From Halomonas qaidamensis (GTDB lineage Bacteria; Pseudomonadota; Gammaproteobacteria; Pseudomonadales; Halomonadaceae), in the NCBI RefSeq assembly GCF_025917315.1, contig NZ_CP080627.1:2108001-2172000 (forward strand): a stretch of 64,000 bases of DNA, in the 5' to 3' direction. Under the pieces are notes generated by a model, which saw nothing but the letters and a program-made list of their open reading frames with translations, ran no database searches and was not told the DNA's origin. Within the stretch, counting starts at the first letter, position 1. The number at the start of each line of letters is the position of its first letter. The position numbers were made by a program, and so were the translations under genes. Shown here piece after piece: positions 47,666 through 53,766 of this stretch.

Positions 47666-48622
47666 TTATTTCCAAAAATCACGAATAGACGCAATTCCCT
47701 GGGCGCCAACGGCGCGTGCATGGCTAGCATCAAAGCGTGTCATACCCCCCAATGCATATACCGGCATACCCGCACGTTCCACTAGCTGTTGAAAGTCATG
47801 CCAGCCTAGCGGCGCTACTTCTGGATGAGAAGGCGTGGTGCGTAATGGCGAAAGCGTCACAAAGTCACAACCTAAAACTGCTGCCTGGGAAAGCTGCGTT
47901 TGATCATGAGTTGATGCTGATAGCCATTTATTTTCAGCGATCGGGCGACGCTCAAGGCTCATTAACCGCGCGCTCGTCAAATGGATACCGTCAGCATCAA
48001 TCCTATCAAGCAACGCAGGCTCACCGTTCAATAGAAGCCTTGCATCGTACTGACGACAAAGGCGCAGAGCACGCTCAGCACGGGCGACATAAGCCGCTTC
48101 ATTAAGATTTTTCGCCCGCAGCTGTACTAACCTTACGCCGTCTTCATCTAATGCTCTTTCTAGCAGGCTATCAAAACGCTCTTCATCGGATTCTTCACCG
48201 GTAATCAGGTAGTCAGTGGGCAACATCACTGCACGCAAAATAGGCAAGTTAGCGGCAGGGAAAGGATAATTTGCCAACTCTTCCATGGGCACCCAACGTA
48301 CAGCCTGCCCTTCACGGCCAAACGGCTCACCTGCAAACTCTTGCACTTGCCAAACATCCAGAAGAATATGCTTATCAGGATACTCATGATGGACGCGGAT
48401 AAGCGGCCGGGCACGTACAATCTCAACGCCTAGCTCTTCGTGCAGTTCGCGTTTGAGACCTTCAAGCCCTGTTTCATAAGGTGCCAGCTTGCCACCGGGA
48501 AACTCCCAGAGGCCGCCTTGATCGACATTAGAGGGCCGACGTGCAATCAGCACTCGCTTTTGATCGGCGCTGATCATTGCAGCCGCCGCAACATGAACCC
48601 GTCGTTTTACCATTACACTCAT
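47666..48622 (-). CDS. Nudix hydrolase / thiamine-phosphate synthase-like fusion (MutT-ThiE)
   Basis: 318 residues from ATG 48622; a GTG at 48637 and an ATG at 48613 are alternatives. Residues about 1-135 are a MutT-type Nudix domain with a complete Nudix box (GKLAPYETGLEGLKRELHEE). Residues about 150-318 are a ThiE-like TIM barrel (VRLVQLRAKNLNEAAYV, GIHLTSARL, FVTLSPLRTTPSH, YALGGMTRFD). The Nudix part likely removes 8-oxo-dGTP; the ThiE part's role is unproven. The same fusion adjoins argJ-secA in Pseudomonas. The two domains share one frame without interruption. Confidence 0.9.
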   Translation of the reverse strand: MSVMVKRRVHVAAAAMISADQKRVLIARRPSNVDQGGLWEFPGGKLAPYETGLEGLKRELHEELGVEIVRARPLIRVHHEYPDKHILLDVWQVQEFAGEPFGREGQAVRWVPMEELANYPFPAANLPILRAVMLPTDYLITGEESDEERFDSLLERALDEDGVRLVQLRAKNLNEAAYVARAERALRLCRQYDARLLLNGEPALLDRIDADGIHLTSARLMSLERRPIAENKWLSASTHDQTQLSQAAVLGCDFVTLSPLRTTPSHPEVAPLGWHDFQQLVERAGMPVYALGGMTRFDASHARAVGAQGIASIRDFWK

Positions 48623-48701
48623 TACGTCTTTACCCACTTTGTGCGCGCCGCCTTAAACGAAGACGGCGCTATCTCGCTGCGTTAGCACGTCACTGCAACT
48701 G

Positions 48702-50011: not shown

Positions 50012-52744
50012 TTAGCTCAGTTTCCCACAGCACTGCTTATATTTTTTACCCGACCCACATGAGCACGGATCATTGCGCCCTACTTTTGGCCCTTCACGAC
50101 GCAACGGACGGCCATCAGCCCCTGGCGCTTCTTGTGACACTTCTTCCTGCTGGGCATTAGGGTCATCATGACGGCTAGCAGCCATCGAGCGCTCACGCAC
50201 TGACTCTTCACGACGCTTCTGTTCTAGTGCATCAACCTCTTCTGGCTGGCGAACCTGCACGTGACTTAGAATACGCGTAACGTCAGCTTTGATGTTGGTT
50301 AGCAAGTGCTGGAATAGCTCGAAGGACTCACGCTTGTATTCTTGCTTAGGATTCTTCTGGGCGTAGCCACGTAAATGAATGCCACGACGCAGGTGGTCCA
50401 TCGACTGCAGATGCTCTTTCCAGCGAGTATCCAAAACTTGCAGCATTACCTGTTTCTCAAAACGACGAATTAACGCAGCTCCAGCAGCTTCAACTTTGGC
50501 TTGGTAAGCATCGCGGTGCATCGCTTGTAGACGCTCACGCAACTTCTCTTCACTAAAACGCTCATCCTCTGCCGCCCACTGTGTAACAGGAGCCTCAAGA
50601 TTAAATTCAGTTTTAAGATGCGCTTCTAATCCTGGTAGATCCCACTGCTCAGCAAGGCTCTGAGGCGGCACGAAATCGCTAATGGTATCTTCCATAACTT
50701 CTTCACGAATACCAATAACAGCCTCGGAAACCTCATCAGCAGAAAGAATTTCATTTCGTTGCTCATAGATAACGCGACGCTGATCGTTAGCGACATCGTC
50801 GTATTCCAGCAGCTGTTTACGGATATCAAAGTTGCGCCCCTCTACTTTTTTCTGGGCACGCTCAACCGCATTAGAAACCATCTTGTGCTCAATCGCCTCG
50901 CCTCGCTCTAGACCGAGAGCCAACATCAAGCGTTTCACCCGATCAGAACCAAACAGGCGCATCAAGCTATCTTCTAACGAGAGGAAGAAACGTGTAGAGC
51001 CTGGGTCACCTTGACGGCCTGCGCGGCCACGCAGCTGATTGTCAATACGACGCGACTCATGGCGCTCAGAACCAACAACATGTAAGCCACCCGCTTCTAA
51101 AACACCATCATGACGCTTCTGCCATTCTGCCTTTAGTGCATCAATCTGCTCTTGAGTGGGATTTTGCAGTTTAGCCGCTTCCGCTTCCCAGTTGCCCCCC
51201 AGAACAATATCGGTACCACGACCTGCCATATTCGTTGCGATAGTAATGGCACCAGGACGACCTGCTTGAGCGATAATTTCCGCTTCGCTCTGGTGCTGTT
51301 TTGCATTCAACACATTAAATGTCAGGCCAGCCTCGCGCATAAGGCGAGCTAGGTATTCTGACGTTTCAATTGACGCCGTACCCACCAAAACAGGACGCCC
51401 TGCTTCAGTTTCAGTTTTCACATCTTTAATAATCGCTTCGTACTTTTCTTCCGCACTGAGATAGACCAAATCATTCAGGTCTTTACGAGCAAGCGGACGG
51501 TTCGTTGGAATAACGACCACATCCAGGCCATAAATTTGCCGGAATTCGAATGCTTCAGTATCGGCAGTGCCGGTCATACCAGCGAGTTTTTCATACAGAC
51601 GGAAGTAGTTTTGGAATGTAGTGGATGCCAGCGTCTGACTTTCTCGCTGAACAGTGACGCCCTCTTTCGCCTCAACCGCTTGGTGCAAGCCTTCTGACCA
51701 ACGACGCCCCGGCATAGTACGACCAGTATGTTCATCAACGATAACCACCTGGCCTTCAGACACGATGTAGTCAACGTCTAGATGATAAAGGTGCCGTGCA
51801 CGCAGCGCGGAGTGCATATGCTGAAGCAAGTTTAGATTTTGTGCAGCATAAAGCGATTCGCCTTCACCCAATAGGCCTTCGGCACGCATCAGCTCTTCAA
51901 CTTTGTTATGCCCCTGCTCGGTAAGTTCTACCTGCTTTTGTTTTTCATCAAGCAGAAAGTCTCCCGTGACGGGTGCATCACTGTCCTCAGAAGCCTCGCC
52001 CTCTTCTAACTGCTGAGCTAGACGATTCACAATGCCGTATAAATCAGTATTTTCATCTACTGCGCCCGAGATAATTAACGGCGTACGAGCCTCATCAATT
52101 AAGATAGAGTCGACTTCATCGACGATGGCATAATGCAGGCCACGCTGCACTTTATCCTCAAGCGAGAACGCCATATTGTCACGCAAATAATCAAAACCAA
52201 ACTCGTTATTGGTTCCGTACGTGATATCACACTGATAGGCATGACGCTTCTCTTCGCCAGTTTGTCCAGCAAAAATAACGCCTACCGATAATCCAAGAAA
52301 CTCATATAAAGGCCGCATCCACTCGGCATCGCGGCGAGCAAGATAGTCGTTAACGGTGACAACGTGCACGCCTTTACCTGGCAACGCATTTAAATATACG
52401 GCAAGTGTTGCCACCAGGGTTTTACCTTCCCCCGTTTTCATTTCAGCAATGCGTCCACGATGCAGCGTCATTCCACCGACCATCTGAACATCAAAGTGGC
52501 GCATGTTCATTATCCGCTTACTGGCCTCGCGCACCACGGCAAATGCTTCAGGCAACAAGCTATCAATCGACGCGCCTTCTGCTAATTTCTCTCGCAGTAG
52601 CCCAGTCTTTGCCTGTAACTCAGCATCGTTTAGTCCTTCAAGCGCTTGTTCTAAAACGTTAATGCTGAGTACGCTTTTTTGCATGCGTTTAACATCGCGA
52701 TCATTTTTAGAGCCAACGACTTTACGTAACAAATTATTAATCAT
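50012..52744 (-). CDS. secA: Protein translocase ATPase SecA
   Basis: 910 residues. Walker A is [19 protein letters not shown], Walker B region [19 protein letters not shown], with [19 protein letters not shown] and [15 protein letters not shown] [19 protein letters not shown]. The C-terminal zinc/SecB-binding tail is [19 protein letters not shown]. It drives preproteins through SecYEG. Its ribosome site is weak (TGGAA 6 nt before ATG) and is preceded by a GC hairpin and a SecM-like ORF, so its translation may be regulated. Confidence 0.98.
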
Positions 52745-52765
52745 GAAAGTTCCAAATCTTTACGA

Positions 52766-52782
52766 GCGGCCCCTAGAGGGGC
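52766..52782 (-). promoter_or_regulatory. GC hairpin in the secA leader
   Basis: On the mRNA, GCCCCU-CU-AGGGGC (52769-52782) forms a 6-bp stem about 25 nt before the secA ATG. Its 3' arm, GGGCCGC (52766-52772), can instead pair with GUGGCCC (52838-52844), which lies in the RGPP codons of the upstream ORF. A ribosome stopped there would choose between the two folds, as with SecM. This pairing is inference. Confidence 0.4.
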
Positions 52783-52812
52783 GCCCTTTTATATAAGGCA
52801 AATAAAGGTAAA

Positions 52813-53184
52813 TTAGCGAACAGAAAGAAAAACTGGCGGGCCACGTGGAGTCAACACATCAATTGCAGCAACCAATCGATGTGGAAGATGAGAAAAACAG
52901 TAGGCAGAGTGCTTGATGACAGAGGAATAAAAATACCTTTGCTCGCCTATCCAACGGCACAGCGCACACCGTTTTTTAGCTATCCATTTTGATTGGGCGC
53001 GCAGCATCGCCGGCACCCAAAAACAGATAATCACACCACGCTCACCGCTACGCAATGTCTCGGAAGGATGTAAACTAGCAGGTAATAAACAGCTCACTAA
53101 GAGGCCTGCCAGCCACCAACGCGCTAAGCCGTTTCGGCGTTGCCGCCGCGGCGAAGCAGACAAAACATCTGGCGTTGATGACAT
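52813..53184 (-). CDS. Putative SecM-like Sec-monitoring arrest peptide upstream of secA
   Basis: 123 residues. A basic N-terminus (PRRQRRNGLAR, 12-22) precedes a hydrophobic signal-like segment (about 23-38, WWLAGLLVSCLLPASL). The middle is Cys/Arg/Lys-rich. The end is DVLTPRGPPVFLSVR, with RGPP at 114-117 and six residues before the stop. SecM ends GIRAGP plus four residues, and RAPP/RAPG-type arrest peptides share the R-x-P pattern. The ORF is co-directional with secA, 68 nt upstream, where secM lies in enterobacteria. AGGAG lies 12 nt before the ATG. Similarity to SecM outside these features is not evident. That it is a gene is likely; arrest activity is inference. Confidence 0.6.
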   Translation of the reverse strand: MSSTPDVLSASPRRQRRNGLARWWLAGLLVSCLLPASLHPSETLRSGERGVIICFWVPAMLRAQSKWIAKKRCALCRWIGEQRYFYSSVIKHSAYCFSHLPHRLVAAIDVLTPRGPPVFLSVR

Positions 53185-53295
53185 ACTGTGGGCTGGCTCC
53201 TGAGCGTGTTAGGCTCTACCAATGAAAAGACAATATAAGACGCTAGTGGCAACCGTCAGTGTGACGCAACCAATAACGTTCTAGGAATCAAGTTG

Positions 53296-53766
53296 ATGAG
53301 TATAAAGGTTAAGCGATCTCGCGCACAGCCCATTACCCAACTGCTGACCAAGTCTGGCAGCATGGGCCAACTTATGCGACAGTCCCGCTTAATTGATCAG
53401 GCCCAACGTCATTTACGCGCCCACCTTCCTGATTCAATGCGAGAGCATATCTTCGTCGGCGGCTTTCAAAACGGACGCTTGACGCTAATTAGCGGCCAAG
53501 CAAGCTGGTTGACATGGTTACGCTATGAACAACCTCGTCTGCTGGTTCTATTGCACCAGTTACCAGGATTTGAAAGTGTCACTGGCTTTACCCTTAAGGT
53601 GCGTCCTATCCGGCCGATTGAGAGGCCCAAACGCTACAACCGCACACTCTCTGAAAGCGCAGGCAAAGCAGTATCAGACTGTGCGAAAGATACCGACAAC
53701 CCCTCACTAAAAAGGGCATTAGAGCGTCTAGCTGCTCATGCACCTAAACATCCAGACCACAACTAG
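53296..53766 (+). CDS. dciA: DciA (DUF721) replicative helicase loader
   Basis: 156 residues from ATG 53296 (AGGA 8 nt upstream; a TTG one codon earlier is less likely). The DUF721 core is QAQRHLRAHLPDSMREHIFVGG, NGRLTLISGQASWLTWLRYEQPRLL and GFTLKVRPI. A poorly ordered basic tail follows. DciA loads DnaB in bacteria lacking DnaC. It is divergent from the SecM-like ORF and convergent with lpxC, as between lpxC and secA in Pseudomonas. Confidence 0.88.
   Translation: MSIKVKRSRAQPITQLLTKSGSMGQLMRQSRLIDQAQRHLRAHLPDSMREHIFVGGFQNGRLTLISGQASWLTWLRYEQPRLLVLLHQLPGFESVTGFTLKVRPIRPIERPKRYNRTLSESAGKAVSDCAKDTDNPSLKRALERLAAHAPKHPDHN

Follow-up and report, generated by a model that had tools for sequence, protein, structure and literature searches.

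A probable RGPP-type arrest peptide encoded upstream of secA in Halomonadaceae

The short open reading frame directly ahead of secA in Halomonas qaidamensis (the uORF) very probably encodes an RGPP-type arrest peptide that serves as a Sec-monitoring substrate for secA, and we assign this mechanism as a whole, with all of its parts taken jointly, a probability of roughly 0.83. The uORF lies in the 64,000-nucleotide stretch of contig NZ_CP080627.1 analysed here (the window). Comparison of homologous loci established the conservation of the peptide, its register and its gene order, together with the pairing potential of the mRNA in Halomonas-type loci; ribosome stalling, export-dependent release of the stall and an effect on secA are the steps we infer. 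The N-terminal segment would target the nascent chain to the Sec machinery, and once P116 occupies the P-site and P117 the A-site, the RGPP end would block peptide-bond formation and stall the ribosome. Active export of the chain would release the stall and poor export would prolong it; in Halomonas-type loci a prolonged stall would keep an mRNA stem open, leading to more SecA synthesis. If this is true, the cell adjusts the amount of its export motor SecA to demand, and such switches are known in other bacteria. The features discussed below, in window coordinates, are:

53296..53766, plus strand: dciA-like gene, divergent neighbour of the uORF
53185..53213, minus strand: conserved 5' leader of the uORF (CCTAACACGC...), with AGGAG at 53197-53201
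52813..53184, minus strand: uORF, proposed Sec-monitor arrest peptide, 123 aa (from homologues and ORF reading)
53071..53124, minus strand: block 1, residues 21-38, signal-like segment ARWWLAGLLVSCLLPASL
52978..53052, minus strand: block 2, residues 45-69, consensus ERxVxICxWVPAxLRAxSxxxA
52834..52869, minus strand: block 3, residues 106-117, arrest region AAIDVLTPRGPP
52834..52845, minus strand: codons of R114-G115-P116-P117
52745..52812, minus strand: uORF-secA intergenic region, 68 nt
52764..52786, minus strand: hairpin before secA, 20-42 nt ahead of its ATG (RNAalifold and covariation, short-spacer Vreelandella-type rows)
50012..52744, minus strand: secA, presumed regulated gene (sequence likeness)

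The uORF, its RGPP end and its conserved blocks

The uORF starts with an ATG that follows the AGGAG of the leader, has an in-frame TAA nine codons 5' of that start, and ends after 123 codons (minus strand, 53184-52813) in TPRGPPVFLSVR. We take the gene at 50012-52744 to be secA on sequence likeness and the one at 53296-53766 to be dciA-like, the name also used in the earlier note; named again from likeness, argJ-like and mutT-like ORFs lie 3' of secA and an lpxC-like gene lies upstream, beyond the divergent dciA-like gene. As a separate observation, a 323-aa ORF at 47666-48637 (minus strand) appears by eye to be a fusion of a MutT-type Nudix domain with a ThiE-like domain. The window protein had no family match in Pfam or NCBIfam at E up to 10, nor any in PHROGs; a search against solved structures gave one chance match (E = 2), and its AlphaFold2 model was helical with modest confidence (mean pLDDT 72, pTM 0.39). 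No known RNA family was found in the uORF/secA region, and a promoter-like site (53232-53259) and two terminator-like sites there were no more than shuffles give.

Conservation of the C-terminus was assessed in 89 distinct uORF proteins from 110 loci (two locus sets, partly of the same genomes), for all of which an ATG start fits, as called by a script that favours ATG. RGPP with a short tail closes 87 of them and RAPP one, and the other is frameshifted and lacks the motif. This last protein, from Halomonas olivaria TYRC17 (L070, 2001-2612), loses frame after about residue 69 and its frame enters secA; given 86% completeness and 6% contamination of the genome, a sequencing error is likely. Across 89 distinct coding sequences (L070 left out), R114, P116 and P117 were kept in 89/89 and G115 in 88/89; Arg was encoded by at least four different codons and Pro by all four. 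This combination of amino-acid invariance and synonymous codon variation implies that RGPP is selected as amino acids. D109 was also invariant or nearly so, and conservation ended right past P117, where the next residue took 13 states; a variable tail of 1-13 residues separates the motif from the uORF stop. In the protein search, RGPP was present in 119 and RAPP in one of 121 proteins (the 120 matches listed of 253, plus the window's), the protein without the motif (P0062) coming from a 3,247-base contig, and uORFs read in 15 further genera carried R[AG]PP in 20 of 20 cases (18 RGPP, 2 RAPP). The position of the motif Arg ranged over residues 108-123 (R109GPP in the L078 and L094 proteins).

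The N-terminal part is conserved as well. An uncharged 16-residue stretch at residues 23-38 (WWLAGLLVSCLLPASL, read directly) lies in block 1, where R22, W23, W24, C32 and P35 were invariant in 89/89 Vreelandella/Halomonas coding sequences and most of ARWWLAGLLV.CLLP was invariant or nearly so; among 19 proteins of other genera, read by eye, the Cys was found in all, and R22 and both Trp were not kept. AlphaFold2 placed a helix at residues 15-37 with modest confidence. A lipoprotein role for the invariant C32 was considered and rejected: a PROSITE-style lipobox pattern fits one of 88 distinct proteins, and a looser L-x-[GAST]-C is present in 88/88. From residue 38 to P116 there are 78 residues, the published spacer criterion for the signal-to-arrest distance being 30 residues (PMC10987492).

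These data bear on several statements of the earlier note, which had proposed SecM-like control by this ORF. Loss of the motif in homologues, loss of the N-terminal segment and absence of codon-level conservation, the sequence-based outcomes it named as refuting, were not seen. It had expected the hydrophobic segment and the RGPP end to be the only conserved parts, which does not hold, as residues 45-69 form a further conserved block, and the second Pro codon (P117) lies at 52834-52836, not 52833-52835 as it had given, next to the P116 codon at 52837-52839. Block 2 would stand 47-71 residues from P116 at the stall, and from this distance it is probably positioned just outside the exit tunnel. 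SecM chain outside the ribosome has been reported to stabilise arrest (PMC4373844), and the spacers of SecM and VemP are described as containing regulatory elements (PMC10987492).

Upstream of the uORF ATG, a leader pattern AGCCTARCACGCYCRGGAG...CACAGC is conserved (45 nt, 74 distinct leaders). Its TAR is an in-frame stop in 45/74 leaders and is replaced by TAC in 6/74, and 17/74 leaders are without the motif. A single exact copy occurs in the window, against 0.28 expected, and a single one genome-wide, with 11 genomic matches at up to two mismatches vs six for the reversed control; on these counts we rejected the motif as a common genomic element.

The mRNA between uORF and secA

We modelled a stall by keeping positions -14 to +16 around the P116 codon unpaired and calculated the energy cost of opening the secA start (-18 to +5). 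The 108 distinct segments comprised 26 of the Halomonas type, 63 of the Vreelandella type and 19 from other genera, grouped by locus number with no tree. The gain in opening energy on stalling averaged 2.54 kcal/mol in Halomonas-type segments (above 1 in 18/26), and was 0.43 kcal/mol in the Vreelandella type (above 1 in 13/63) and 0.87 kcal/mol in other genera (above 1 in 8/19). With masks shifted by -60, -30 and +30 nt, the corresponding gains were 0.20, 1.07 and 1.61 kcal/mol (Halomonas type), 0.40, 0.29 and 0.28 kcal/mol (Vreelandella type), and 0.35, 1.13 and 0.32 kcal/mol (other genera). A clear peak at the stall position was therefore found solely in the Halomonas type, where shifted masks gain less.

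Most Halomonas-type loci allow pairing of the uORF tail CUGCGUGGGCA with UGCCACACGCAG, located 15-26 nt before the secA ATG in locus L084, and this pairing with the secA-side stretch would explain the AWA tail common to these loci. A few lineages (L102, L105, L081 and L075), of which two are counted as Vreelandella-type, have quite different complementary stretches at the same positions. The 5' arm of the predicted stem would sit just past the RGPP codons and the 3' arm about 15-26 nt before the secA ATG; because the mRNA right after RGPP pairs there, a stalled ribosome would open the stem by the secA start in the Halomonas type. For the Halomonas type, own pairing exceeded swapped pairing in 14 representatives (p = 0.0006; p = 0.039 within the group) and, under stricter clustering, in eight (p = 0.0024). 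Among 36 Vreelandella-type representatives it did not exceed swapped pairing (p = 0.53), and among 19 representatives of other genera the excess was marginal (p = 0.11). Among Halomonas-type representatives, control segments 57 and 27 nt upstream showed no excess pairing (p = 0.65 and 0.77, respectively); in other genera the one 57 nt upstream reached p = 0.016, and we therefore attach no weight to isolated p values of this magnitude. A further segment, 33 nt 3' of the stall, did score significantly in the Halomonas type (0 of 3000), which its overlap with the secA-side segment and an inner hairpin would lead one to expect. In 17 chosen rows the Halomonas stem was 93% paired, but none of its pairs had changed on both sides; 59 of 500 shuffles reached the covariation score of the structure as a whole, and RNAalifold on 23 rows (three deviating ones included) did not pick the stem.

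Short-spacer Vreelandella-type loci carry the separate hairpin listed above, which RNAalifold also selected. Over 23 short-spacer rows, its six pairs were formed in 96.4% of cells with 12 cells changed on both sides; these values and the covariation score were each reached by 0 of 500 shuffles, and the number of pairs with both-side changes (two) by 93 of 500. Its arms lie outside the stalled-ribosome footprint. Just 5' of the secA hairpin, a stretch TTTGCCTTATATAAAA is conserved at 52787-52802 (minus strand), also in Vreelandella-type loci, and could be a candidate internal secA promoter. A single-sequence fold (z -1.21) suggested that the RGPP codons of the window pair with secA codons 6-8; this was dropped because, judged by eye, the pairing breaks in relatives with Arg CGC or CGG.

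By pairing potential, Halomonas-type loci support a SecM-type RNA switch and Vreelandella-type loci, that of the window included, do not. In the window's genus the stall may act on secA by way of mRNA stability, ribosome queueing or transcription-translation coupling instead of stem opening. We regard this as possible, though we lean against it: Vreelandella-type loci have no stall-linked pairing, they possess their own conserved hairpin 20-42 nt before the window's secA ATG, and the secA Shine-Dalgarno is weak or absent (no 4-nt match in 87/108 segments, all clades together), yet single-strand folding can miss tertiary or protein-assisted structure, and a SecM-like layout is present in Halomonas-type loci. 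Such a route refines the arrest-peptide explanation and does not exclude it. The contrast between the two types would offer a test of the same nascent-chain sensor with a changed route from stall to expression.

Distribution in Halomonadaceae and exchange with an M23 peptidase gene

Halomonas alkaliantarctica FS-N4 (L031), whose corresponding genome is assigned to the same species, has a uORF protein identical to the window's. Homologues were found in 80/82 genomes of the window's genus, the two misses being 80% and 66% complete, and a profile built from 31 homologues (alignment A1) detected the uORF in 240/254 Halomonadaceae genomes at least 90% complete, covering 20 of the 24 sampled genera. 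The 123-residue ORF noticed earlier is confirmed as genuine and strongly conserved. All 14 misses belonged to four genera (g106, g108, g112 and g114), and the regions of these 14 had no R[AG]PP ORF before secA either. Among 391 genomes of the order, the profile matched in 20 Halomonadaceae genomes, and the lone match outside the family was a short stretch with an internal stop in one other family. If the arrest-peptide explanation is right, Sec-monitoring arrest control of secA extends to these 20 genera of a family with biotechnological use.

Gene order was equally stable. The arrangement lpxC-dciA(divergent)-uORF-secA was present in 75 of 80 named loci, the other five having no detected lpxC, and the uORF stood before secA in every locus checked (the 80 named loci and 20 further regions). 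The order sample spans 43 families, with the window's as f1. From the 150 genomes listed of the 195 in this sample we chose 86 secA-upstream regions in 34 other families, of which L155 and L248 were uninformative; the 84 informative ones contained no same-strand R[AG]PP uORF, defined as an ORF of at least 45 aa that ends at most 450 nt from secA and has R[AG]PP in its last 25 residues. A looser motif scan of these regions returned eight matches (LPPP, RAGG twice, RAPC, HSPG, RAPI, KAGP and RAPL), located in ORFs of 45-73 aa or within peptidase or LpxC-like ORFs. Most of these regions carry an M23 peptidase or an LpxC-like ORF.

An M23 peptidase gene precedes secA in the Halomonadaceae genera without the uORF (L217-L230) and in most other sampled Pseudomonadales families. 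A search of 21 Halomonadaceae genomes (E <= 1e-20) found a full-length M23 homologue in 4/4 family members without the uORF and 0/17 with it; six of the 17 uORF-bearing genomes had matches to the M23 C-terminal domain and no full-length one. Since presence of the M23 gene goes with absence of the uORF, the data fit a replacement at the secA locus. Derivation of the uORF from the replaced gene was rejected, as profile comparison gave nothing (probability 0.2%). In L215 and L216 of family f41, the M23-like ORF before secA is shortened to 145 and 140 aa, where the usual peptidase has 300 aa. Halomonadaceae without the peptide, beside genera that have one, would make this gain-of-switch event accessible for study.

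A fuller reading joins these strands: a three-part device of signal, block 2 and RGPP clamp, with a rewired RNA output, that arose at a locus that had lost its M23 gene. Taken jointly this is speculative, and we think it rather unlikely. If its first part is true, the lineage-specific block 2, outside the tunnel at the stall, senses or tunes release at the translocon; if its second is, Halomonas uses stem opening and Vreelandella a different route, while the peptide and the gene it controls have stayed the same.

That the product is simply a small exported or membrane protein with a job of its own, block 2 being its functional part and RGPP having no role in arrest, is improbable by a wide measure. 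Block 2 and the signal-like block are nearly invariant at many residues, as the motif is, and of the E. coli and B. subtilis proteins tested that contain a RAPP-like motif, most did not stall (Fujiwara et al. 2024, PMC10987492), so the motif by itself is insufficient. However, proteomes are reported to exclude RAPP-like motifs strongly, with enrichment towards the C-terminal end of small membrane or secretory proteins and, for RAPP/RGPP uORFs, over-representation before secA and other sec genes (Fujiwara et al. 2025, PMC12992588). The uORF, moreover, stops 1-13 variable residues past its motif and is found ahead of secA in all the named and further loci checked.

Relation to published arrest peptides

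E. coli has a uORF in the corresponding place (lpxC ... uORF-secA). The peptide is nonetheless very unlikely to be a diverged true SecM homologue of enterobacterial descent: its neighbourhood and topology are similar, but the window protein has no Pfam match at E up to 10, SecM is not among 11 weak Pfam matches of the 31 members (E up to 1), FxxxxWIxxxxGIRAGP is absent from alignment A1, and most other sampled Pseudomonadales families have the M23 gene at this locus. The earlier proposal of SecM-like arrest control survives in part: position, signal-like segment and motif at the amino-acid level stand, the exclusive conservation of two parts does not, and novelty very probably does not either.

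The claim that the peptide was new and without a family name is very probably superseded by the RQH family of RAPP-like arrest peptides, defined from 30,175 genomes, which already includes uA_RQH_Pseudomonadales, found upstream of secA in a subset of Pseudomonadales (PMC10987492). Its R109GPP representative is reported to stall E. coli and B. subtilis ribosomes in vitro (fAP > 0.9), and RQH toeprints place the third motif residue in the P-site (PMC10987492). According to PMC10951233, RAPP motifs block peptide-bond formation; arrest by RGPP and RAPP is described as robust and EF-P-refractory, and in ApdP, ApcA and SecM reporters RGPP supports arrest or makes it stronger (PMC12992588). The uORF shares the RQH features: it is small, lies upstream of secA in the same direction, has no annotated function, and has an N-terminal signal-like segment, a conserved C-terminal RAPP-like motif and a spacer of more than 30 residues. 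On sequence evidence, its product very probably belongs to this published kind and very likely to the published group, and uA_RQH_Pseudomonadales is very probably the Halomonadaceae uORF group, because the 84 informative regions of other families had no such ORF. Halomonadaceae have been merged into Pseudomonadales, matching the GTDB (PMC7498684). The words Halomonas and Oceanospirillales are absent from the main text of PMC10987492, Halomonas is not mentioned in PMC7897499, PMC10951233 or PMC12992588, and searches of the PMC library around Halomonas and Halomonadaceae turned up no named description of the uORF gene.

Like the uORF, uA_RQH_Pseudomonadales is secA-upstream in the same GTDB order, is annotated as hypothetical protein, and combines an N-terminal localisation signal with a C-terminal RGPP whose Arg is residue 109 (108-123 in Halomonadaceae uORFs). 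The passages of PMC10987492 consulted describe no block 2, invariant Cys, mRNA stem or M23 replacement for it, and as far as the consulted passages of the literature go, four features are fresh: block 2, the invariance of the Cys, an mRNA design that differs between lineages, and the M23 exchange. E. coli SecM is likewise placed before secA, with a Sec signal and a C-terminal R-[AG]-[PG]-P end, and a SecM-like mRNA stem placed for opening by a stall is predicted in Halomonas-type loci; in contrast to SecM, whose arrest motif is FxxxxWIxxxxGIRAGP (as in PMC10987492), the uORF shows no detected homology, lacks the FxxxxWIxxxxGI element and has RGPP instead of RAGP. RAPP-like peptides in general are reported to share no overall likeness (PMC10987492). 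ApdA and ApdP, too, are small exported products of uORFs with R-[AG]-P-P towards the C-terminus, but are encoded upstream of secDF in Actinobacteriota and Alphaproteobacteria. Finally, uDF_RQH_Enterobacterales differs in its order and its position upstream of secDF2, yet it is an RGPP arrest peptide (R125GPP) as the uORF product would be, and it induces the downstream sec gene in E. coli reporters.
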